Shown here: positions 26,961 to 51,126 of the stretch, one piece after another | Position numbering within the stretch: position 1 is the first letter of the stretch | How the letters are laid out: every line of letters begins with the position of its first letter | Assembly: GCA_013044385.1 (NCBI GenBank) | Contig: JABEUN010000093.1 | Location: forward strand, 1-51,649 | From: Acidimicrobiaceae bacterium | GTDB lineage: Bacteria > Actinomycetota > Acidimicrobiia > Acidimicrobiales > Acidimicrobiaceae | Reading direction: 5' to 3' | DNA: 51,649 nucleotides | The notes under the pieces: model-generated | The model's database searches: none | What the model saw: the letters and a program-made list of their open reading frames with translations, nothing else | What the model was told of the DNA's origin: nothing | Program-made: the position numbers and the translations under genes

Positions 26961-28031
26961 ATGAAACTTGCCAGATCACAGCGTGCGGCCTCGAGCCGAC
27001 GTCTCAGCGGGTCGAAGCTTGCCTTCTTGATGGCCGTAATGGCGATCATCGCCGGTTGCGGTGCTGGAGCAGGCGTCCCGAAGCACAGCCAAAGTAGCCC
27101 CACTACCCGTCCGCCAGGTATACCTAAGTCCCCCTCGGTTCCGACCAAGGCAGGTCCGACTAGCACTACAGAGTTAGGCGTCGGAGGCACTTCAACCTTG
27201 GCAACACCACACATATTCGTGATCATGATGGAAAACCTCTCCTACTCGCAAGCATTGGCCACTCCATCTATAGCCACGTTGGCTGATCGCTATGCATATG
27301 GGACGAACTACTTCGCCGTCAGCCACCCATCACTTCCCAACTATTTAGCAGTGACCTCCGGCAGCACCTTCGGCATCACGACAGACTGTCTTACCTGTTA
27401 CGTCACCTCACCGAATCTGGCAACTCAGCTGACCCAGACGGGCATCAGCTGGAGCGCCTTCTTTGAAGGCACATCTCAGAGTTGCTACCTGGGCACTTCC
27501 TATGGCACCTACGCAGCAAAACACAACCCATTCCGTTATTTCACCGATGTCAGAGCGAGCACTACAATGTGCAGCCACCTTCTCCCATTCTCAGCTTTCA
27601 AACAGCAATTGGCAGATGGCGGAACCTCGCTCGCCGCATTCAACTGGATCACTCCGAACATCTGCAACGACGGTCACGACTGCCCCGCACAGGATGCTGG
27701 ACAGTGGCTATCGGGCTTGGTCTCTCAGATCGTATCCACGTCGGCATGGCGGACCAACGGTCTAATAATCATCACATGGGATGAAGGTGGCTTTTCTGAT
27801 AACCGCCAGATCTCTCCCACCGGGACGGTACTTCCAAGCGGCGGTGGAGGTAATGCACTGACGATCTTCATCTCTCCAAAGATCCCGTCGGGCACCCGAA
27901 TATCTCAACCTATGAGTAACTATTCAATCCTCGCATCGATTGAACAGGCGTACAACTTGCCACTACTCAACTCTGCTTCTCAGTGGAAGTCTGACACAAT
28001 CGGGAATGTCTTGGGCACCTCGGCCTATTAG
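26961..28031 (+). CDS. Secreted lipoprotein phosphoesterase (acid phosphatase/phospholipase C family)
   Basis: A 356-residue extracytoplasmic phosphoesterase of the PF04185 type. The signal peptide has a basic n-region (KLARSQRAASSRR), a hydrophobic core (20-30) and a lipobox IAGC with Cys33, so it would be lipid-anchored. A Pro/Thr/Ser linker (37-80) follows. Catalytic-domain markers are HIFVIMMENLSY near 85 (metal-binding Glu in MMEN), SHPSLPNYLAVTSG near 118 (nucleophile region) and IIITWDEGGFSDN near 275 (metal-binding Asp/Glu). Four or more cysteines (CLTC, SQSC, MCSH, CNDGHDC) may form disulfides. It would release phosphate from phospholipids or phosphomonoesters. ATG is at 26961; it is apparently monocistronic. 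Confidence 0.87.
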   Translation: MKLARSQRAASSRRLSGSKLAFLMAVMAIIAGCGAGAGVPKHSQSSPTTRPPGIPKSPSVPTKAGPTSTTELGVGGTSTLATPHIFVIMMENLSYSQALATPSIATLADRYAYGTNYFAVSHPSLPNYLAVTSGSTFGITTDCLTCYVTSPNLATQLTQTGISWSAFFEGTSQSCYLGTSYGTYAAKHNPFRYFTDVRASTTMCSHLLPFSAFKQQLADGGTSLAAFNWITPNICNDGHDCPAQDAGQWLSGLVSQIVSTSAWRTNGLIIITWDEGGFSDNRQISPTGTVLPSGGGGNALTIFISPKIPSGTRISQPMSNYSILASIEQAYNLPLLNSASQWKSDTIGNVLGTSAY

Positions 28032-41476: not shown

Positions 41477-42559
41477 ATGATCATTTCTGAAGAGGTTTCG
41501 CGCAGCGAGACGATCGGTCCAAATCTCGGGGGGCTGGTGAGCACCAAGAACGTAGATGACGACAAGCCGCAGAAGGCACGACCATTAGTGTCGATCGTCG
41601 TGCCGACGCGCAACTCGGCTCGCACCCTTAGAGAGTGTTTGGAGTCAATCGAAGCACAGTCGATTGCTTGCGAGATAATCGTAGTCGACAATAATTCAAC
41701 CGACGAAACCACTCAAATAGCTCTGGAATATGTAGACAAGCTCGTTCGAGGTGGCCCAGAAAGATCGGCACAACGGAATATCGGCTTTTTGGAGTGCGCA
41801 GCGGATGCCGTCGGCTTCATTGACTCGGACATGGTACTGGAACCCACGGTTGCCGAAGAGGCACTTGCGATGATTTCAGGGGGATTCGCGGCAGCGGTAG
41901 TGCCTGAATACACGTCTGGAACTGGATATTGGACAAGCGTGAGGGCCTATGAACGTTCTATGTATCTGGAGAACAAGAACGTTGAAGCAGCTCGGTTCTT
42001 CAGCCGACCAATTCTTGAGCAACTTGGTGGTTTCAACGAGGAGTTGACCGGTGGAGAAGATTGGGATCTTGAGATCAGGGCTGAGCAGTTCGGCAAGATC
42101 GGAAGAGTAACAGCTCGCATTAGGCACGACGAAGGGCATCTCAGGTACCTAGAAGCCTGCCGCAAAAAAGGCTACTACGCAAAGGGTTACGCGAGGTTTG
42201 CTCGGACCCATGGAATCAAGACTCTCATCTCGATCACAGTGAACAGAACATATATAAAATCACCAAAAGTGCTGCTCACTGGCAAGGGAATCGGGCTTGC
42301 AGCACTAAAGTTTGGAGAGATGGTCGCAATTTTGGTGTCTGTTTCGCGCCAGTTCGCTATCGACACTTTCAGCACAGAACCGCGTGATTCTGTTTCCAAA
42401 TCCTCCTTAGCCAGCTTCTGGAGCACAATTGGAGAGCGCCTAAAAGAGGCAATCTGCGAGCAAGATCCCGAAGAGACATTGACCGTTGCTCCCCAGTTGC
42501 CGTCGGCCTCGATCGAGGCATCCGCTCAGTGTATTTCTCGGGACCAGCCGAAATACTGA
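41477..42559 (+). CDS. Glycosyltransferase family 2
   Basis: A 360-residue GT-A glycosyltransferase. The N-terminal 36 residues are non-conserved; the catalytic domain starts with VSIVVPTRNSART at 38-50 and has CEIIVVDNNSTDET near 65-78. SAQRNIGFLECAADAVGFIDSDMV follows, with the metal-binding DSD at 116-118. The acceptor segment GGFNEELTGGEDWDLEIRAEQ carries the catalytic ED. A weakly hydrophobic part (about 285-305) may touch the membrane. The ATG at 41477 lacks a clear ribosome site. The two GT2 genes flank the gene-free region in opposite directions, so they are not one operon. Confidence 0.88.
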   Translation: MIISEEVSRSETIGPNLGGLVSTKNVDDDKPQKARPLVSIVVPTRNSARTLRECLESIEAQSIACEIIVVDNNSTDETTQIALEYVDKLVRGGPERSAQRNIGFLECAADAVGFIDSDMVLEPTVAEEALAMISGGFAAAVVPEYTSGTGYWTSVRAYERSMYLENKNVEAARFFSRPILEQLGGFNEELTGGEDWDLEIRAEQFGKIGRVTARIRHDEGHLRYLEACRKKGYYAKGYARFARTHGIKTLISITVNRTYIKSPKVLLTGKGIGLAALKFGEMVAILVSVSRQFAIDTFSTEPRDSVSKSSLASFWSTIGERLKEAICEQDPEETLTVAPQLPSASIEASAQCISRDQPKY

Positions 42560-43061: not shown

Positions 43062-44030
43062 GTGGGTCCTAGTTCCGACATGCAAGAGCAGATAGTAACA
43101 GGGCGCGACGACCGCATATTGGTGGCGGGCATCTCAAGGTCCGGAAGTTCATGGCTAATTGAGGCCCTCGGTGTGACGCCAGGTACCAAGCGTTGGTATG
43201 AACCAGACAACATTGACGCAGACCCAACAGGTACAAAGCCGGTCGGGCGGAGCGGATTTGGTCCGTACCCTATCATCCATCCTGGCGACGATGGCGGTGT
43301 GTTCAAATCACTGTGGGACGTAGCGTTCGGAAGCACCGTGCACCTAGACAGGTTTGGCGGACTTCTGATACCGATTCTCAGGCCCATGCTGAAACTGCCC
43401 CAACCCATCCTGCATCGATTGGTTCGCGTCGGATCAAAGGTTCTGACGACTCTGCCAGGTAAGACAGACCGTATCGCCGTTAAGTCGGTATATACCTGCT
43501 TCTGTTTGGATTGGCTAGTTGAAGAGTACGACCCAAAGGTCATCATCATCCAGCGAAACCCGCTCAACGTCATCTCAAGTTGGAGAGAATTGAAGATTCC
43601 GGCTTTTGACCTGATGACTAGACCAGAGCTGATCCGTCTTTACGCAGATCGATACGAGGGTCCACCGCCGACACTGGAAGACTCGCCCCTGACACGGATG
43701 GCCTGGCAGGTCGGACTCACCACAACGGCCATGGGCGACTCGCTAGACCGCCACCCGGGTTGGGTAGTCGCAAATCATGAAGATCTTTGCGTCGAGCCAG
43801 CCAAGAAGTTTAAGGCTCTCTTCGAGAAGGTGGGAGTCCCTTGGTCCGAAGACGTCGAGGCTTACCTTGAAAAGTCAAACCGACCTGGTGAGGGCTTGAA
43901 GCCAGTGCGGGTCACCAGTGAGCAGGTTGACCGTTGGAAGTCTCGACTTACAGCTAGCGAAGTCGAAGAGATCAATTCCGTTCTAGCCCGTTTCCCGAGG
44001 AAGGGTTGGATTCGGGAGCCCTCATCGTAG
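43062..44030 (+). CDS. PAPS-dependent sulfotransferase family protein
   Basis: Predicted to move a sulfate group from PAPS to a hydroxyl of a glycan or other acceptor. The 322-residue protein has the 5'-phosphosulfate loop ISRSGSSWL at 24-32 (P-loop-like, usually PRSGTTWL) and the 3'-phosphate motif IIIQRNPLNVISSW at 161-174 with Arg165 and Ser172. The end RFPRKGWIREP matches the usual GxxxxW-like family ending. The GTG start at 43062 follows GAGG by about 10 nt; ATG 43080 is possible. It lies 18 nt before the flippase gene on the same strand, which makes a sulfated surface polysaccharide the simplest reading. Confidence 0.85.
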   Translation: MGPSSDMQEQIVTGRDDRILVAGISRSGSSWLIEALGVTPGTKRWYEPDNIDADPTGTKPVGRSGFGPYPIIHPGDDGGVFKSLWDVAFGSTVHLDRFGGLLIPILRPMLKLPQPILHRLVRVGSKVLTTLPGKTDRIAVKSVYTCFCLDWLVEEYDPKVIIIQRNPLNVISSWRELKIPAFDLMTRPELIRLYADRYEGPPPTLEDSPLTRMAWQVGLTTTAMGDSLDRHPGWVVANHEDLCVEPAKKFKALFEKVGVPWSEDVEAYLEKSNRPGEGLKPVRVTSEQVDRWKSRLTASEVEEINSVLARFPRKGWIREPSS

Positions 44031-44048: not shown

Positions 44049-45467
44049 TTGAGAAAGAGGACCTTCTTGCTCGGCAGAGGCAGAGGCGTTGAAAGGCTGC
44101 ATGGGCACCACGAGCGAAAAAAACTCCTCAAGGATAACGCGATCGCGACTGTTGCTTCGATGCTCGCTGGCCTGCTCATGTTCGGCCTCCAATCATTCGC
44201 TGGCCACAAACTGCATCCGTCAGAGTTCGGGCGTGCTTTTGCGCTGATCGGTTTCTACTCGATTGTCGTCCGACCATCAGCATCTTTCGGAAGACTTGTT
44301 GCTTGGCAGACAAGCAGAGAGGACCCTGACGATCAGGGAAGACGTCCCCTGAGTGATGCTGTTCTCAGAACGCTCCTCATCTGGACATTTTGTGCTGGGT
44401 TGGTCATAGCGCTTTCGTCAACGGCCTTCTCGGGCGCCCTTTCTCACTACTTTCATACCACCGAGGCTGAGGTAGTCTCCATTGCGTGGTCATCACCGTT
44501 TCTCCTCTCCGTACAGCTGATGTTCGGCTCCTTGCAGGGCGAACGGAAGTTCGGCCTCTGGAGCACGATGATCGTACTTCTACCAATCAGCTACTTGGCA
44601 TTTATTGCATTTCTAGTCGGACCGCTTGGTACAAACGGTGTCCTCATCGGGGTTTTAATCGGAGCTTCCATCACCTTTGCAGTTGGCTTTGGAATCATTC
44701 GGCGACGCCTAACAGTGCATCCAGCACGATCAGTTAAGCCAAACTGGAAGGACTACCGCCCCTTCTTGGTCACGGGATTCATCTCGACGCTCACAGTTGG
44801 CGTCTTCGTAAGTGCAGACGTCGTAGTGGTACAGCACTACTTCAGTCGCACAATAGCGGGGCAGTATGCAACCGTCTCTGCCATAGGAAATGCGTTGTTT
44901 TCAGTTAGCGCTGGCGTCGCAAGTGCGATTTTCCCAAGCGTAGCTTCCAGACAGGCAAAGGGGCAGCGTACAGGCAGCATAATGTTCGCAGTTATAGCCC
45001 TTTTTGTCACTATTACACTCATCGGAACGACGACGCTCAACCTGCTAGGTTCGTTCGCTTTGCGCAACTTCGCAGGAGCCAAATACGAGGGTGCTTCATA
45101 CTATTTGGGCTGGTACGCATTCGGAATGGGCATCCTCAGCATTGCGGTCGTATTGGTTCACACACAGCAATCTCGCAACAGGTTCGGACTGTTGTGGATA
45201 TTGGTGCCAGCATTCGTTCTTCGTCCAACCCTGTTGATATTGTTCCACTCTTCGGTAATTATGGTTGTGGCCGTTAGCGATCTTGCAGTTACCTTGTTCG
45301 CAGCGGCCCTTTTGATTGCCTACCTTGTAGATGAGCGGAGAATGGGGGTCTCGGGTAATTTGAGCGCTGAGACGCGGGGCCGGCATTTCTCTCAGTCGGA
45401 AGGCTCAGATATTTTCAACGGTCAGCTCGGTGTCGCGCACGCCTTTGAAAACCCTTCCGTAGACTAG
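44049..45467 (+). CDS. Oligosaccharide flippase (Wzx/MOP family)
   Basis: A polytopic membrane protein of 472 residues with 12 or so hydrophobic segments between 30 and 435 that would flip a lipid-linked oligosaccharide across the membrane. The N-terminal half begins with NAIATVASMLAGLLMFGLQSF, and the pairs VGVFVSADVVVVQHYF and AGQYATVSAIGNALF near 255-290 are typical of Wzx-type exporters. TTG at 44049 is the start; the basic N-terminus (RKRTFLLGRGRG) precedes the first helix. The gene sits 18 nt after the sulfotransferase and 8 nt before the GT-C gene, so the three form an operon for assembly of a surface glycan. Confidence 0.86.
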   Translation: MRKRTFLLGRGRGVERLHGHHERKKLLKDNAIATVASMLAGLLMFGLQSFAGHKLHPSEFGRAFALIGFYSIVVRPSASFGRLVAWQTSREDPDDQGRRPLSDAVLRTLLIWTFCAGLVIALSSTAFSGALSHYFHTTEAEVVSIAWSSPFLLSVQLMFGSLQGERKFGLWSTMIVLLPISYLAFIAFLVGPLGTNGVLIGVLIGASITFAVGFGIIRRRLTVHPARSVKPNWKDYRPFLVTGFISTLTVGVFVSADVVVVQHYFSRTIAGQYATVSAIGNALFSVSAGVASAIFPSVASRQAKGQRTGSIMFAVIALFVTITLIGTTTLNLLGSFALRNFAGAKYEGASYYLGWYAFGMGILSIAVVLVHTQQSRNRFGLLWILVPAFVLRPTLLILFHSSVIMVVAVSDLAVTLFAAALLIAYLVDERRMGVSGNLSAETRGRHFSQSEGSDIFNGQLGVAHAFENPSVD

Positions 45468-45475
45468 AGGTGGCC

Positions 45476-48400
45476 ATGAGTACGACACATTCGCCCGATA
45501 CTCGGCCCCCGTCGAGCTACTCAGATTGGCTTCTGTCAAAGACCAAGTGGGTCGAAGACAAACCCTGGCTGGTGTGTTTGATTCTCGGAATTCTGGGCTT
45601 GCTCGTCCGACAATCTTGGCTTAACCTGCAACCTCTTGTCTCGGGGGATCAGGGTTGGGCGACTATAACTCGACTTAAGACGTTCGGTCCGTGGCCGACA
45701 ATCTGGGACCCAACTGACGGACTTGGCGGCCTGAACGGACTCTTCAACGACTTCAGGTTCCCGATGTATGCAGTGGAAGGTATCCTTGCAAATCTAGGAG
45801 CCCACTGGAACGTGATCCAGAGAGTCGTGCTCTACTTTCCCGAAGCTATCCTCGCTCCGATCAGCTCATGGCTGCTCGCAAGGGAGATCCTCGGTCAAAC
45901 TAGGTGGACACTGCTAAGTCCACTACTTTTCGTGGCGAGCACCTACATGATTACCGAAGGTAATGGTGAAATTCCCCTGGCCCTCGGAGCCGCAGTCGGC
46001 TGTCTAGTTCTCGTTGCATTCCTCAAAATGGTTCGACAAAGATCAGTCCCATGGGCGATCGCGACCGGACTTCTGATGGCAGTCTGCGCCACTTCGGACA
46101 TTCGCCCCGCTTACGTCACCGCTTTGATTTTGATCATCTATCTACCTGTGTTGTTCGCAGCCGAACCCAAAGGTCGATTGATACTCGCAAGGCTCGGCCT
46201 GGCATCTATTGCGGGAGTCACCTTCCTATTGACTCAGACGTTCTGGATCCTGCCGACCCTGGCTTATGGGAATCTTTCTGGACTACCAATTCCGAGCCAA
46301 CCGGACTTTAACATTATCACCCTGATTCACGGCATAACTGGAGTGATTCCAGAGTGGACGGGTGCTAATCCGACTCCGCTGGTTCAAGGGACACTAAATC
46401 CCCTTTTCATCCTGCTTCCGATGGTCGCGCTCATCGCACTCACCAGCCGAAAGCTCAAACCAGAATATCTATGGCTGGCAATCGTCGCCGTCGTCTTCGG
46501 ATTCCTCGCCAAGACCAACAATGCTCCTCTTGGGTCACTTTATGACTGGCTGTTCATGCATCTTCCTGGCTTTAACCTCTTCAGAGAAGGCAGCAAGTTC
46601 CAATATCCGGTAGTCATGGCATTTTCAATTCTCATACCCGCAAGCTTGATGACCCTATCGACATGGAGAAGGAGACCTAGTAAGCGTTCAAGGGTGGGAA
46701 TACCGATAGCAATCACTGCGATCCTGGGACTGACCGTCTTGATGTCAGCGGCGTCGATAATCTCACTCGAGAGCGGCGCTCTGCTCGGCACAACAGTTCC
46801 GATTGCGGAACCAAGCTCCTTTGTCTCGCTGACCCAGATGCTGAATCACGACAGCAAACCAGGTCAAGTCCTTTGGTTCGGCGCACCAAGATTTTACACA
46901 GCTACCGGCGAATCACACGGCTACAACATCGCATCTAAGACACACCCGATTTACACGTTGAATGGGAATATCAACTCAATCCAGGTCATAGCAAGAGACC
47001 CACTCCAGAGCTTCTGTAGGGTGTATTCGCAACCTTACTGTTACGTCACGAGTTCAATTTTCCCCTACTTAGTTGCTCAGACGAACACCACTTACCTAGT
47101 CAGCCCAGCGGGCCTCGGTATCTGGAGCCTCCCTGGAGGCTTGACCAACCAGTGGCTCGAGAAGCAGGTCTCGTCTATGTTTGGTCAGCCCATGACTCTT
47201 GGGACTGGGGCAACCGCGATCTACGTCTGGCATATCCCAACCAAGGCTCAACCAGTAACGAACTATCTAGCCGTCGGTGAAGTAGATTCTGGGACCTGGT
47301 CACTTCCTTCGATACTCCCAGCAGTGCAGGCGCTCAACATACCGCCAGCTTTCAGGCAGATTTACGCAGAGAACAACCTACCAGTAGCCCCAGCTGGCCT
47401 ACCTTCAAGTATCTCGATTTCACCATTAACATCCGGTACATGTACGGTCGGTCACAGCGGCGAGTACGCAATGATGATGAAATCGGCATTGAGTTCCGCC
47501 CAAATTTCATCTGGATCGGGCGTATTAGCGCTTAGTAGGCTCGCAAGCTCGGTTCGCGCACCTGGATGGAGCTTCTACGGCCCGGTGAAGCTGAGCGCTG
47601 GAAAAAATGAAGTTGCGGCCATAGGTAGCAATATCACGCAGGGACCCTGTGTGCTTTGGAGTTCACTCACTCGACGCGTACTTTCCAGCTCAGGAGCCAC
47701 TAGCTCCTACCCAACCAGTGCATTCAACAGTGAGCAGCTTACGAGTCATTTCACGGGCGCCGTTGGTCCATGGACACAGCTGAACGTCGGATATGACTCT
47801 GGCTGGCGTATGCGCGGCTCAAAAATCGCCTTACCCGGGGAAGCACTTTTCAACCTTTTCTACACTCCTACCGGATCCACCTCGTCAACAGCTTCCTTCA
47901 CATTCAAAACACTCGGCTCCGAAAAGATCGGTTTTCTGGTCTCGTCAATATCGAGCCTGATCGCACTTGCCCTTCTGCTCTGGCCCAGATTTCGAAAGCG
48001 CTTCAAAGTTCCCGTCGATGCGCAACTTCCCTATTTCCCCGAAAGCAATCTAGGTGCCTCTTTCGCTTCTCTGGGAGTCGTATTCTTCGGACTGACTACG
48101 GTGGCAGAGACGTATAACTGGCTCGGAATTCCATCTAGGTTTCCGTGGGCTTCTGTGACAGGCAATCCATACCTCTTGAGCACAATCTTTGCAACCATGG
48201 CAATCATCCTGGTTCTGCTCGCAGGAGTGGTCAGAATAGTACCTCCACTGCTCGGCGAGAGGCTCAGAAGTAGTGTGAACAGGACCCTTAGAATCAACAA
48301 GCCGCAAGCTGTTGCGGCGGCGGTTCTCGCCGCAACGCTCTCTGCGTGCACCTTGGGTTCATCCGGCAACATTAATCAAGTGCTAGTTCAAGCAGCTCAA

Positions 48401-49369
48401 GCAGGTGCGACTTCGCCAAAGATCATGGGCAGCTCAATTCAAGCGGCGCGCCTTTCATTCGTCGCTAACAATCCAACTAGTTGCATAGCCGACTATACAT
48501 CAGCACTTTCCACCTATCCTCAGCTCCCATCCATCTTTACGGGTCGCGCTAACTGCTACGAGAGTCGTGGGGTCCAAATGGCAGATGCAGCTCTGCAGGA
48601 TTACCTAGCATCGCAGAAGTTGATGCCCTTCAACCCAGACGTCTACTACAGGCTGGCAGCAGCATACAGACTTGTCGGGAACGTCAAGATGTCAAGGAAC
48701 TCTTACCTGAAACTCGCCTCAATGCCAAACGCAAGCGCTCAACTGGTCAGCAATGCGGTACAGGGTCTGATTAGCCTCAAATTCATGGCGGACGCACAAG
48801 CAGCCCTCCGCATCCAGTTCGAGAGATTCCCGAACAACCCAATATCTTTTATGGCCGCTAGCGATCTGGCAGCCGCCGAAAATCAAGACGTAAAAGCGCA
48901 GGCGTACATCATTCAGGCCGAAAACGCAGCACCTTCCTTCTCATTGGCCGCAGGTCAGGCTGCCGGAGCGGAGTGTCGCTTCTTGCTCGCTCGACTCGAA
49001 TTCAGTCGTGCCTTGACCTACTGCAAGGTCGCATTGGTGAGTCAGCAAAACCAATCGGCTCTCTGGGACGATATCTCAGCAATCTACGCAACTCAGGGGC
49101 ACCTTGGACAAGCAATCAGTGCCATGAACAGTGCAATTGGTTCATTCGAGGCGAATATCGGACCATACGCACAGCAATCCGGCATCAGTGGATTTGGACT
49201 AAGCAATCTTTACGAGGAGCAGGGACGGCTATACGTCGAGGTGTACAACTCCAAAGCAGCAGTCGCGGACTTTGAAAAGGCAATCTCTTTTCTCCCTCCA
49301 AACAGCCCTGACTCACTTGCGCAGTACAAGAACGACATAATCGCCGCCGAGAATTCAAGCGGAATCTGA
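45476..49369 (+). CDS. GT-C membrane glycosyltransferase fused to a TPR domain by an internal lipobox
   Basis: A 1297-residue protein. Residues 30-440 form a GT-C-type membrane domain of about 11 helices with an acidic residue in the first outer loop (LVSGDQGW, Asp58) and LFREGSKFQYPVV near 368, resembling AftD-like arabinofuranosyltransferases. An outer Ser/Thr-rich domain (about 440-815) and three more helices (about 820-920) follow. Then LRINKPQAVAAAVLAATLSAC (935-958) has the charge, core and lipobox (LSAC, Cys958) of a lipoprotein signal. Next come roughly 340 residues of TPR-like helices with conserved YRLAAAYRLVG, DISAIYATQGHLGQAISAM and LYEEQGRLYVEVYNSKAAVADFEKA. An in-frame GTG at 48275 could start a separate lipoprotein. 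ATG 45476 is preferred to GTG 45470 because AGAGG lies 5-6 nt upstream. Confidence 0.8.
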   Translation: MSTTHSPDTRPPSSYSDWLLSKTKWVEDKPWLVCLILGILGLLVRQSWLNLQPLVSGDQGWATITRLKTFGPWPTIWDPTDGLGGLNGLFNDFRFPMYAVEGILANLGAHWNVIQRVVLYFPEAILAPISSWLLAREILGQTRWTLLSPLLFVASTYMITEGNGEIPLALGAAVGCLVLVAFLKMVRQRSVPWAIATGLLMAVCATSDIRPAYVTALILIIYLPVLFAAEPKGRLILARLGLASIAGVTFLLTQTFWILPTLAYGNLSGLPIPSQPDFNIITLIHGITGVIPEWTGANPTPLVQGTLNPLFILLPMVALIALTSRKLKPEYLWLAIVAVVFGFLAKTNNAPLGSLYDWLFMHLPGFNLFREGSKFQYPVVMAFSILIPASLMTLSTWRRRPSKRSRVGIPIAITAILGLTVLMSAASIISLESGALLGTTVPIAEPSSFVSLTQMLNHDSKPGQVLWFGAPRFYTATGESHGYNIASKTHPIYTLNGNINSIQVIARDPLQSFCRVYSQPYCYVTSSIFPYLVAQTNTTYLVSPAGLGIWSLPGGLTNQWLEKQVSSMFGQPMTLGTGATAIYVWHIPTKAQPVTNYLAVGEVDSGTWSLPSILPAVQALNIPPAFRQIYAENNLPVAPAGLPSSISISPLTSGTCTVGHSGEYAMMMKSALSSAQISSGSGVLALSRLASSVRAPGWSFYGPVKLSAGKNEVAAIGSNITQGPCVLWSSLTRRVLSSSGATSSYPTSAFNSEQLTSHFTGAVGPWTQLNVGYDSGWRMRGSKIALPGEALFNLFYTPTGSTSSTASFTFKTLGSEKIGFLVSSISSLIALALLLWPRFRKRFKVPVDAQLPYFPESNLGASFASLGVVFFGLTTVAETYNWLGIPSRFPWASVTGNPYLLSTIFATMAIILVLLAGVVRIVPPLLGERLRSSVNRTLRINKPQAVAAAVLAATLSACTLGSSGNINQVLVQAAQAGATSPKIMGSSIQAARLSFVANNPTSCIADYTSALSTYPQLPSIFTGRANCYESRGVQMADAALQDYLASQKLMPFNPDVYYRLAAAYRLVGNVKMSRNSYLKLASMPNASAQLVSNAVQGLISLKFMADAQAALRIQFERFPNNPISFMAASDLAAAENQDVKAQAYIIQAENAAPSFSLAAGQAAGAECRFLLARLEFSRALTYCKVALVSQQNQSALWDDISAIYATQGHLGQAISAMNSAIGSFEANIGPYAQQSGISGFGLSNLYEEQGRLYVEVYNSKAAVADFEKAISFLPPNSPDSLAQYKNDIIAAENSSGI

Positions 49370-49884: not shown

Positions 49885-51126
49885 ATGGACCTTCAACTAC
49901 GTAAACGCAGACGAAGCCTGAAAGCCATCGCAGCACTGATTCTCATAGCGGTGACACTTGGTACTCTCTATATCACCAACCACAAAGCCACCAACGGAAC
50001 CTCGGCTCGCCCACCCGTTCCGAGACCAAGCGGCGCAAGTGGTCAAGGAGGCCTAGGAACTTCACCACTTCCGAAACCCACCAAAGTGTACAACGTCGTC
50101 AACTTCGGAGCAGACAGGACCGGACAGAGAGACTCGACAATCGCCATACGCGCTGCGATAACTGCAGCGGAGGCCCACTCGGGGAGTGAGGTCTACTTTC
50201 CCTCTGGAAAATTCATACTCGATCAGCCTTCGCCAAAACTCTTCGACTTCGTAATCAATAAGCCAATCCAGATAATAGGCGCCGGGATTTCAGCGACCAC
50301 AATCATCAATGAAGTCGGACATAAAACACCCGGAGTCACATTGAGCACAGACATGTTCGCAATCGAAGTCGTGCCAGGAACTCAGACCGGAGGCGGTAGT
50401 GGAACGATCATCTCGAATATGACGCTGGACAGCGCTACTTACGATGCCGGCACAGATATCATGGATTTCGCCAACCACACCACTCTAAGCAATCTAAAAG
50501 TTCTAGCGGCCAGCAGTACCAACACTTACAACTACAACTCATTTGGCATTCGAGTGATCGCAATTTGCAGTCCAAACAATATCTCATATAAATATAGAGT
50601 AGGCAACGTAATAAATAACGTTACCATCATCGGCAAAGGGCAACAAGGAACTACAGAACTCGACCTTTCATGTCAAATTGGAAGTTCTGCCTCTAACATA
50701 ACAATTGTCGGAAATGGATTAGATATCTTCTACTGCCATAATGACACAGTCCGCAATGCGAACCTCACAAGCGGCAACTATGCGCCACGCCTTTACACAT
50801 GGGTAATAACGGGATCTACGAACATAAGTTTGTCCAATATCATTGCAAATGGTATGGGTGGTACTATCGCTCCAGACGTCCGACTCGTCAGCAACAACAT
50901 AAGTATAGAGAACGAGAGTATGACCCAGAAATACTCATCACTTTACATTGGCGATTCGCGTAACGTATCAATACTCAATAGTTCTCTCGGCGGCATCATA
51001 ATCCTTCCTCGAGCCAAAGTAGACGGTCTAAAATTGGATCACACTAGCGTCAGCTTGGTAATTTGCAGGCCCGGAGCGTCCACATCGAATCTCTCAGGAC
51101 TTGCTTGCCCACCATATAGTCCGTAG
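49885..51126 (+). CDS. Pectate-lyase-superfamily beta-helix protein (secreted or membrane-anchored)
   Basis: A 413-residue protein with a basic start, a signal-anchor helix (AIAALILIAVTLGTLYI, about 14-30) and a Pro/Ser/Gly linker to residue 68. The right-handed beta-helix domain opens with VYNVVNFGADRTGQRDSTIAIRAAI near 69-93, the PF12708 signature, and continues with VYFPSGKFIL. Coils rich in Asn and Ile follow (many NxSI/NxTI repeats such as NNVTIIG, SNITIVG and TNISLSNI), the ladder of the beta-helix. It would act outside the cell as a polysaccharide lyase, hydrolase or epimerase on the glycan made nearby. No catalytic residues can be named with confidence. Confidence 0.82.
   Translation: MDLQLRKRRRSLKAIAALILIAVTLGTLYITNHKATNGTSARPPVPRPSGASGQGGLGTSPLPKPTKVYNVVNFGADRTGQRDSTIAIRAAITAAEAHSGSEVYFPSGKFILDQPSPKLFDFVINKPIQIIGAGISATTIINEVGHKTPGVTLSTDMFAIEVVPGTQTGGGSGTIISNMTLDSATYDAGTDIMDFANHTTLSNLKVLAASSTNTYNYNSFGIRVIAICSPNNISYKYRVGNVINNVTIIGKGQQGTTELDLSCQIGSSASNITIVGNGLDIFYCHNDTVRNANLTSGNYAPRLYTWVITGSTNISLSNIIANGMGGTIAPDVRLVSNNISIENESMTQKYSSLYIGDSRNVSILNSSLGGIIILPRAKVDGLKLDHTSVSLVICRPGASTSNLSGLACPPYSP

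Follow-up and report, generated by a model that had tools for sequence, protein, structure and literature searches.

A single open reading frame (ORF) in an Acidimicrobiaceae contig of 51,649 nucleotides (JABEUN010000093.1, assembly GCA_013044385.1; the whole stretch is called the window here) encodes a GT-C-like membrane part, an extracytoplasmic domain and a tetratricopeptide repeat (TPR) domain, and directly before the TPR domain it carries a complete type II signal peptide that is conserved in all six known members of the family. We propose that the product is a two-in-one precursor, in which Cys958 at the end of this signal would lie outside and be lipidated, and in which LspA would probably cut to yield a membrane enzyme and an anchored TPR lipoprotein, 1:1. 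Judged from sequence, this is the reading that we consider probable. That the fusion is a natural bacterial polyprotein of fixed 1:1 stoichiometry, separated at an internal conserved type II signal by way of Lgt and LspA, we hold with a little less assurance, at somewhat better than even chances.

One open frame joins a GT-C-like membrane part to a TPR domain

The frame runs from 45476 to 49369 on the forward strand, as do all features of the fusion given below, and comprises 1297 codons (1297 amino acids) starting with an ATG at 45476, which is preceded by a Shine-Dalgarno sequence, AGAGGTGG, at 45466-45473 that overlaps the stop of the upstream gene. It begins with a divergent GT-C-like polytopic domain (residues 26-440, 45551-46795), identified from invariant columns, a profile match to an outgroup gene (G453) and fold lists from a low-confidence model, and continues with an extracytoplasmic domain (residues 441-814, 46796-47917), which is mostly beta in low-confidence models and has invariant C514 and C522. 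Three C-terminal transmembrane (TM) helices, at about 815-840, 858-883 and 901-925 (47918-48253), are visible in hydropathy and in the low-confidence models. They are followed by a predicted cytoplasmic linker with a basic n-region (residues 927-942, 48254-48301), charged in all six members, and by the h-region and lipobox of the internal type II signal peptide (residues 943-957, 48302-48346). Cys958 (codon 48347-48349, context QAVAAAVLAATLSAC) is the predicted lipidated +1 residue and opens the predicted mature TPR lipoprotein (residues 958-1297, 48347-49366). An in-frame GTG at 48275-48277, residue 934, lies 24 codons 5′ of Cys958. The initial annotation had reported this frame, its coordinates, Cys958 and the GTG, all of which proved exact on re-reading, and its description of a fusion of GT-C-like part, ectodomain and TPR domain with an internal lipoprotein-type signal is confirmed, the whole signal being conserved in 6/6 members.

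In a search of 60 genomes, the window's own included, nine gave a match: its own, five with full-length homologues (39%-47% identity) and three with weak partial matches. The five homologues and the window protein have the same unbroken fusion (6/6). An apparent TAG inside the G024 homologue was discarded, as the match there runs beyond the end of the gene and the ORF is open.

The internal type II signal is conserved as a whole

The six members share one junction anatomy, in which the third C-terminal TM helix is followed by a basic stretch, a short h-region and then [AS]-Cys. The 20 residues preceding the h-region carry a net charge of +4 to +6, and the h-region itself consists of 13-15 residues free of Lys, Arg, Asp and Glu. 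Between R920 and A973, no column other than that of Cys958 is invariant, and the lipoboxes read LSAC in the window protein and TSAC, LSSC, LSSC, LSSC and VASC in the homologues. All five homologues have Gly directly after the Cys, and the window protein has Thr; the same two residues occupy this position in a sample of six proteins of the window's genome that are likely N-terminal lipoproteins, five with Gly and one with Thr. The Cys sits at residue 957-964 in all six members, which do not have the N-terminal signal that defines a bacterial lipoprotein; once processed, the fusion may work like a lipoprotein, without being an ordinary one.

Such a motif could arise by chance, or the frame could be an assembly join of two genes. 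A rule for type II signals (a basic n-region, then 10-22 uncharged residues, the lipobox and a hydrophilic stretch behind it) was applied to 374 kb of the window's genome (the window and 20 further stretches), 120 kb of genome G021 and 124 kb of genome G017. Among the 38 ORFs of at least 600 amino acids in these samples, three have an internal site, all of them members of the fusion family, and the other 35 have none. Among all 589 ORFs of at least 80 amino acids, two more hits appear spurious (at residue 229 of 233 and 82 of 101), and every other hit, of which the window's genome has six and G017 two, falls at a usable N-terminal start or close to one; the first start of L043 and of L053 is probably annotated too early. 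Under a looser rule, 331 ORFs of the window's genome yield seven internal hits, one of them the fusion. Two of the seven look like misplaced starts of ordinary lipoproteins, unrelated TM segments are hit as well, and loose motif matches also fall within TM helices of the AftD-like outgroup, so that the motif in one protein alone would be weak evidence. The argument rests on conservation of the whole signal in 6/6 members and not on the tetrapeptide, and this conservation is strong evidence. With the same unbroken frame and signal in six genomes, and with homologues as far from the window protein as the identities above, a chance lipobox or an assembly join is highly improbable.

The junction is selected as protein and lacks a conserved internal start

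Codon substitution across the junction was examined in the L004-L005 pair, the closest and the only unsaturated one. For the GT-C part, the ratio of nonsynonymous to synonymous substitution (dN/dS) is 0.087; the ectodomain has 0.136, the three-TM part 0.215 and the TPR part 0.083. Over the 47 codons of the junction, the ratio is 0.116, with a proportion of synonymous differences (pS) of 0.60; over the 17 codons of the signal, it is 0.238 with a pS of 0.44, a stretch too short to judge; and over the 16 codons of the linker, substitution has reached saturation. In two more distant pairs, the linker alone is unsaturated, at 0.48 and 0.94 over 14 codons. On these codon comparisons, the junction as a whole is read and selected as protein, with a nearly free linker.

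The initial annotation had offered, next to signal-peptidase processing, internal initiation at GTG 48275, which would make a separate lipoprotein beside the full-length protein. This GTG stands 24 codons before Cys958 with GAGAGG about 12 bases upstream, and other in-frame starts occur in some members, at -40 (inside the third TM helix) in 3/6 including the window and as TTG at -34 and -31 in L002. None of the five homologues has a start codon at -24, however, and L005 has no ATG, GTG or TTG from -60 to -10. Furthermore, the pS of the junction is as high as that of the other long segments (0.52-0.60). As a conserved mechanism, the internal start is rejected for want of a conserved start codon at -24, and even for the window's gene we regard it as very unlikely. 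Rfam gave no match above the gathering score in the window. Of the options offered in that annotation, processing of one fused product by signal peptidase fits best because the lipobox is conserved in all six fusions, while internal initiation found no support.

The C-terminal domain has the sequence and fold of TPR repeats

Searching Pfam with the whole window protein gave TPR models in the C-terminal third and otherwise only a weak PTPS_related match (E value 0.55). TPR_2 and TPR_17 are matched in all six members at E values up to 0.1, TPR_8 scores above its cut-off for the isolated C-terminal part of the window protein, and a profile search against the PDB also supports TPR. Two structure models were made, with mean pLDDT of 52.1 (AlphaFold, residues 441-1297) and 42.6 (GT-C part), which are poor overall and usable for the TPR part only. 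In the former, model residues 601-780 have ten-residue pLDDT means of 61-90, all but two of them at least 76, and in VIA the TPR part matches TPR superhelices (best Z 21.3, root-mean-square deviation [rmsd] 8.2, 292 residues aligned). The C-terminal domain is thus confirmed to carry the TPR repeat sequence and fold. Besides Cys958, it has four invariant Cys residues (C1003, C1027, C1167 and C1183), which would suit an oxidizing location outside; any pairing among them is suggested by position alone.

The membrane part is likely of GT-C type

Residues 1-930 match no curated family in any of the six members, the best being PTPS_related at an E value of 0.034. PF11847, the AftD family, is not matched at E values up to 1 in any of them, which places the fusion outside that family as modelled. 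A profile of the GT-C part matches the G453 gene, from another family of the order, over residues 31-491 (E value 2.7e-34), and the G453 protein itself matches PF11847 at 0.0005, below the cut-off. Furthermore, hhalign aligns residues 691-844 with the C-terminal part of two AftD-like G325 proteins, which are 86% identical to each other (E value 2.4e-6, probability 89); this alignment falls outside their PF11847 stretch.

GT-C enzymes carry a conserved acidic residue or motif in the first outer loop. In all six members, an invariant GDQGW follows TM1, and its D58 fits this motif. The GT-C-like domain also has an invariant FNLFREGSKF (F366-F375). With the low-confidence model of this part, oligosaccharyltransferases and Emb proteins head the Foldseek list, the best E value being 1.9e-3 and none reaching 0.001. 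In VIA, AftA comes first (Z 11.1, rmsd 3.7, 172 residues aligned), with STT3 and Pmt4 also leading, and AftD (Z 7.2, rmsd 5.8, 249 aligned) and ArnT follow further down, interspersed with unrelated helical proteins; these scores lie under the Z of about 13 below which matches are common for helical bundles. Together, the TM layout, the profile link to G453, the low-confidence fold lists and the D58 motif make it likely that the membrane part is of GT-C type, and sugar transfer would be its presumed activity.

A search for separate versions of the two parts

Within the window's own family (42 genomes), the GT-C and TPR parts are found in the same six genomes and always in one frame; the GT-C profile has five further matches, all of them weak and partial, and the TPR profile has none. 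At the level of the order, 397 genomes drawn from a larger group were searched, and the GT-C profile matches 19 and the TPR profile seven, two of each being the fusion; G453 is the one other clear GT-C match and the rest are weak or partial. In the class, the full profile matches 12 of 395 genomes, in full only in the window's own and weakly and partially in the others. A scan of GTDB contigs gave six loci, the five homologues and one Flavobacteriales contig that matches residues 999-1120 only, at 26% identity.

In the genomes searched with the GT-C and TPR profiles apart, no split version with separate neighboring genes was found. Nine neighbor proteins of seven outgroup loci gave no TPR match against Pfam at E values up to 0.01, and as the flanks were inspected for part of the loci, this is a sample and not proof of absence. 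Two outgroup GT-C proteins, L033 and G453, stop short of any TPR part; G453, the closest clear one, has 816 amino acids, one C-terminal TM-like segment and no TPR match. Because these proteins lack it, an origin from two once-separate genes, as suggested in the initial annotation, is plausible on sequence grounds, although the genomes searched yielded no separate neighboring genes. The same annotation had set against its own reading the case of homologues with an ordinary TM helix in place of the signal; at the sequence level, this case was looked for and not found, the signal being kept in 6/6 members.

A processed precursor or a permanent fusion

We envisage that one ribosome pass produces a GT-C-type glycosyltransferase and then a TPR lipoprotein as a single precursor, which would be inserted as a polytopic protein. 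The basic loop after the TM helix at 815-840 and the basic residues 927-942 are predicted to be cytoplasmic by the positive-inside rule, and the short helix 943-957 would then cross N-in/C-out and place Cys958 outside. At the outer face, Cys958 would meet Lgt and then LspA like any prolipoprotein: Lgt would add diacylglycerol to the Cys, and LspA would probably cut before it, leaving a membrane enzyme and a lipid-anchored TPR protein, 1:1.

The strongest rival is a permanently fused single protein, in which the last segment is a plain TM helix with the TPR domain outside, as in the eukaryotic TMTC proteins, and in which something else conserves the Cys, or lipidation takes place but no cut follows. 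GT-C and luminal C-terminal TPR parts in one chain are known from TMTC1-4 (PMC7801869), the genomes searched yielded no split form, and C176, another TM Cys, is invariant without being a signal. Against a plain helix stand the 13-15 uncharged residues with a lipobox Cys at their outer end in 6/6 members and nothing else in the segment invariant; each of the three helices before it spans about 25-26 residues in the low-confidence model. We regard the uncut fusion as possible, and as distinctly the less likely of the two.

Several observations weigh against the processed precursor. The enzyme part has another invariant Cys behind a small residue, C176 in one of its TM helices, so that invariance of a TM Cys does not by itself prove a signal; hydrophobic residues continue after C176, and the type II rule does not flag it. 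In L002, the residue at -3 is Thr, and four of the six members have Ser at -1, a position that is always Gly or Ala in the six sampled host lipoproteins. The signal evolves faster than the domains in L004-L005 (0.238 over its 17 codons), and in the two more distant pairs, the 14 codons compared in the linker give ratios of 0.48 and 0.94. The junction is poorly modeled (pLDDT about 25-39), as is the GT-C part (mean 42.6). Furthermore, the known family is limited to six members, and among the five homologue records, four bear the same sample label. Lipidation and cleavage at Cys958 are predictions, and the internal helix could remain as an uncut anchor.

Lipoprotein machinery and neighboring genes

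The window's genome (G000) encodes Lgt at one locus and the LspA family at three (C75:34844-35248, C79:2969-3382 and C92:30235-30654), all above the family cut-offs. The extra signal peptidase II copies could have specialized substrates. The window also contains an ordinary lipoprotein gene (26961-28031) with an N-terminal lipobox, IIAGC.

Directly upstream of the fusion lies a gene for a polytopic protein (44049-45467, forward strand), flippase-like by reading only, and a relative stands directly upstream in the five homologue loci; in L002, this gene is cut by the contig end, and the likeness there is also by reading. No family or PDB profile matches it, apart from a domain of unknown function (DUF) at an E value of 0.04 in one of five members. 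Before it lies a sulfotransferase-like gene (43062-44030, forward strand; Pfam match below cut-off); in four homologue loci, relatives with 50%-61% identity stand close to the fusion, and the contig of the fifth ends too early. The window further has a GT2 gene at 41477-42559. In L003-L005, a GT2 gene adjoins the fusion convergently (L083:2512-3267, L082:3462-4232 and L040:11923-12678); it differs from the window's GT2 and is not found at that place in the window. The L083 gene, the one scanned, weakly matches the undecaprenyl-phosphate 4-deoxy-4-formamido-L-arabinose transferase model. Downstream of the fusion, 49885-51126 encodes a pectate-lyase-like protein (rhamnogalacturonase/epimerase type) with one TM-like segment near its N-terminus.

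Discussion

In Bradyrhizobium japonicum, the fbcH gene encodes a cytochrome b/c1 precursor, a polytopic protein followed by a secreted one, which is cut at an internal signal peptide. The fusion described here likewise has one gene for a polytopic and a following protein, and it differs from fbcH, which has a type I signal and belongs to a respiratory complex. LtaS of Staphylococcus aureus is polytopic and is cut by the type I signal peptidase SpsB at Ser218, which releases its extracellular domain (PMC10865820). It resembles the fusion as a polytopic envelope-polymer enzyme with an internal signal-peptidase site behind the TM domain, whereas its site is of type I, leaves no lipid anchor and releases the catalytic part; in the fusion, the signal is a complete one of type II and stands before a TPR module of its own. 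Cleavage by signal peptidase inside polytopic proteins is already known. In a review, the lipobox is described as part of an N-terminal signal sequence, and Lgt and LspA as acting on prolipoproteins at the outer face (PMC8048626). We found no description of a conserved internal type II signal or internal lipobox in the open-access literature searched, judged by titles and abstract openings.

Among membrane glycosyltransferases, mycobacterial AftD and other PF11847 proteins are similar in being long GT-C proteins with an ectodomain and C-terminal TM helices, a likeness supported by the profile match of residues 691-844; the GT-C part is connected with them indirectly, by way of G453. They differ in that the six fusion members have no PF11847 match, as noted above, and in that the three PF11847 proteins sampled, one of which (L032) is cut by its contig end, have no TPR at E values up to 0.001. 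TMTC models in Pfam are not matched at E values up to 1 by the window protein or its GT-C part, which places it outside the TMTC families as modeled. We know of no internal lipoprotein signal in TMTC1-4. The eukaryotic TMTC1-4 share with the fusion the order of a GT-C part and then an extracytoplasmic, in their case endoplasmic reticulum-luminal, TPR part in one chain (PMC7801869).

The gene neighborhood resembles three-component pentofuranose addition systems, with a flippase-like gene, a GT-C-like enzyme and a GT2 nearby (PMC11127046). The flippase role here is assigned by reading only, and the available text of that paper contains no occurrence of TPR, tetratricopeptide or lipoprotein. The TPR lipoprotein would most likely serve as a scaffold or acceptor guide for the extracytoplasmic reaction of the enzyme. 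The nearest analogy is offered by LpqZ and FecB, envelope lipoproteins that are discussed as helpers of AftA and AftB, extracytoplasmic GT-C enzymes that they are proposed to assist (PMC12802301). LpqZ and FecB are separate and substrate-binding-protein-like, whereas the putative lipoprotein here is encoded in the enzyme's own frame.

If Cys958 is processed, the substrate rules of Lgt and LspA would have to be widened to include a conserved lipobox that lies some 950 residues from the start of a polytopic enzyme, and the lipoprotein pathway could act on signals deep inside membrane proteins. Predictors restricted to N-termini would then overlook such lipoproteins. For the organisms that carry the fusion, it would be a gene-level way of coupling an enzyme to its periplasmic helper.

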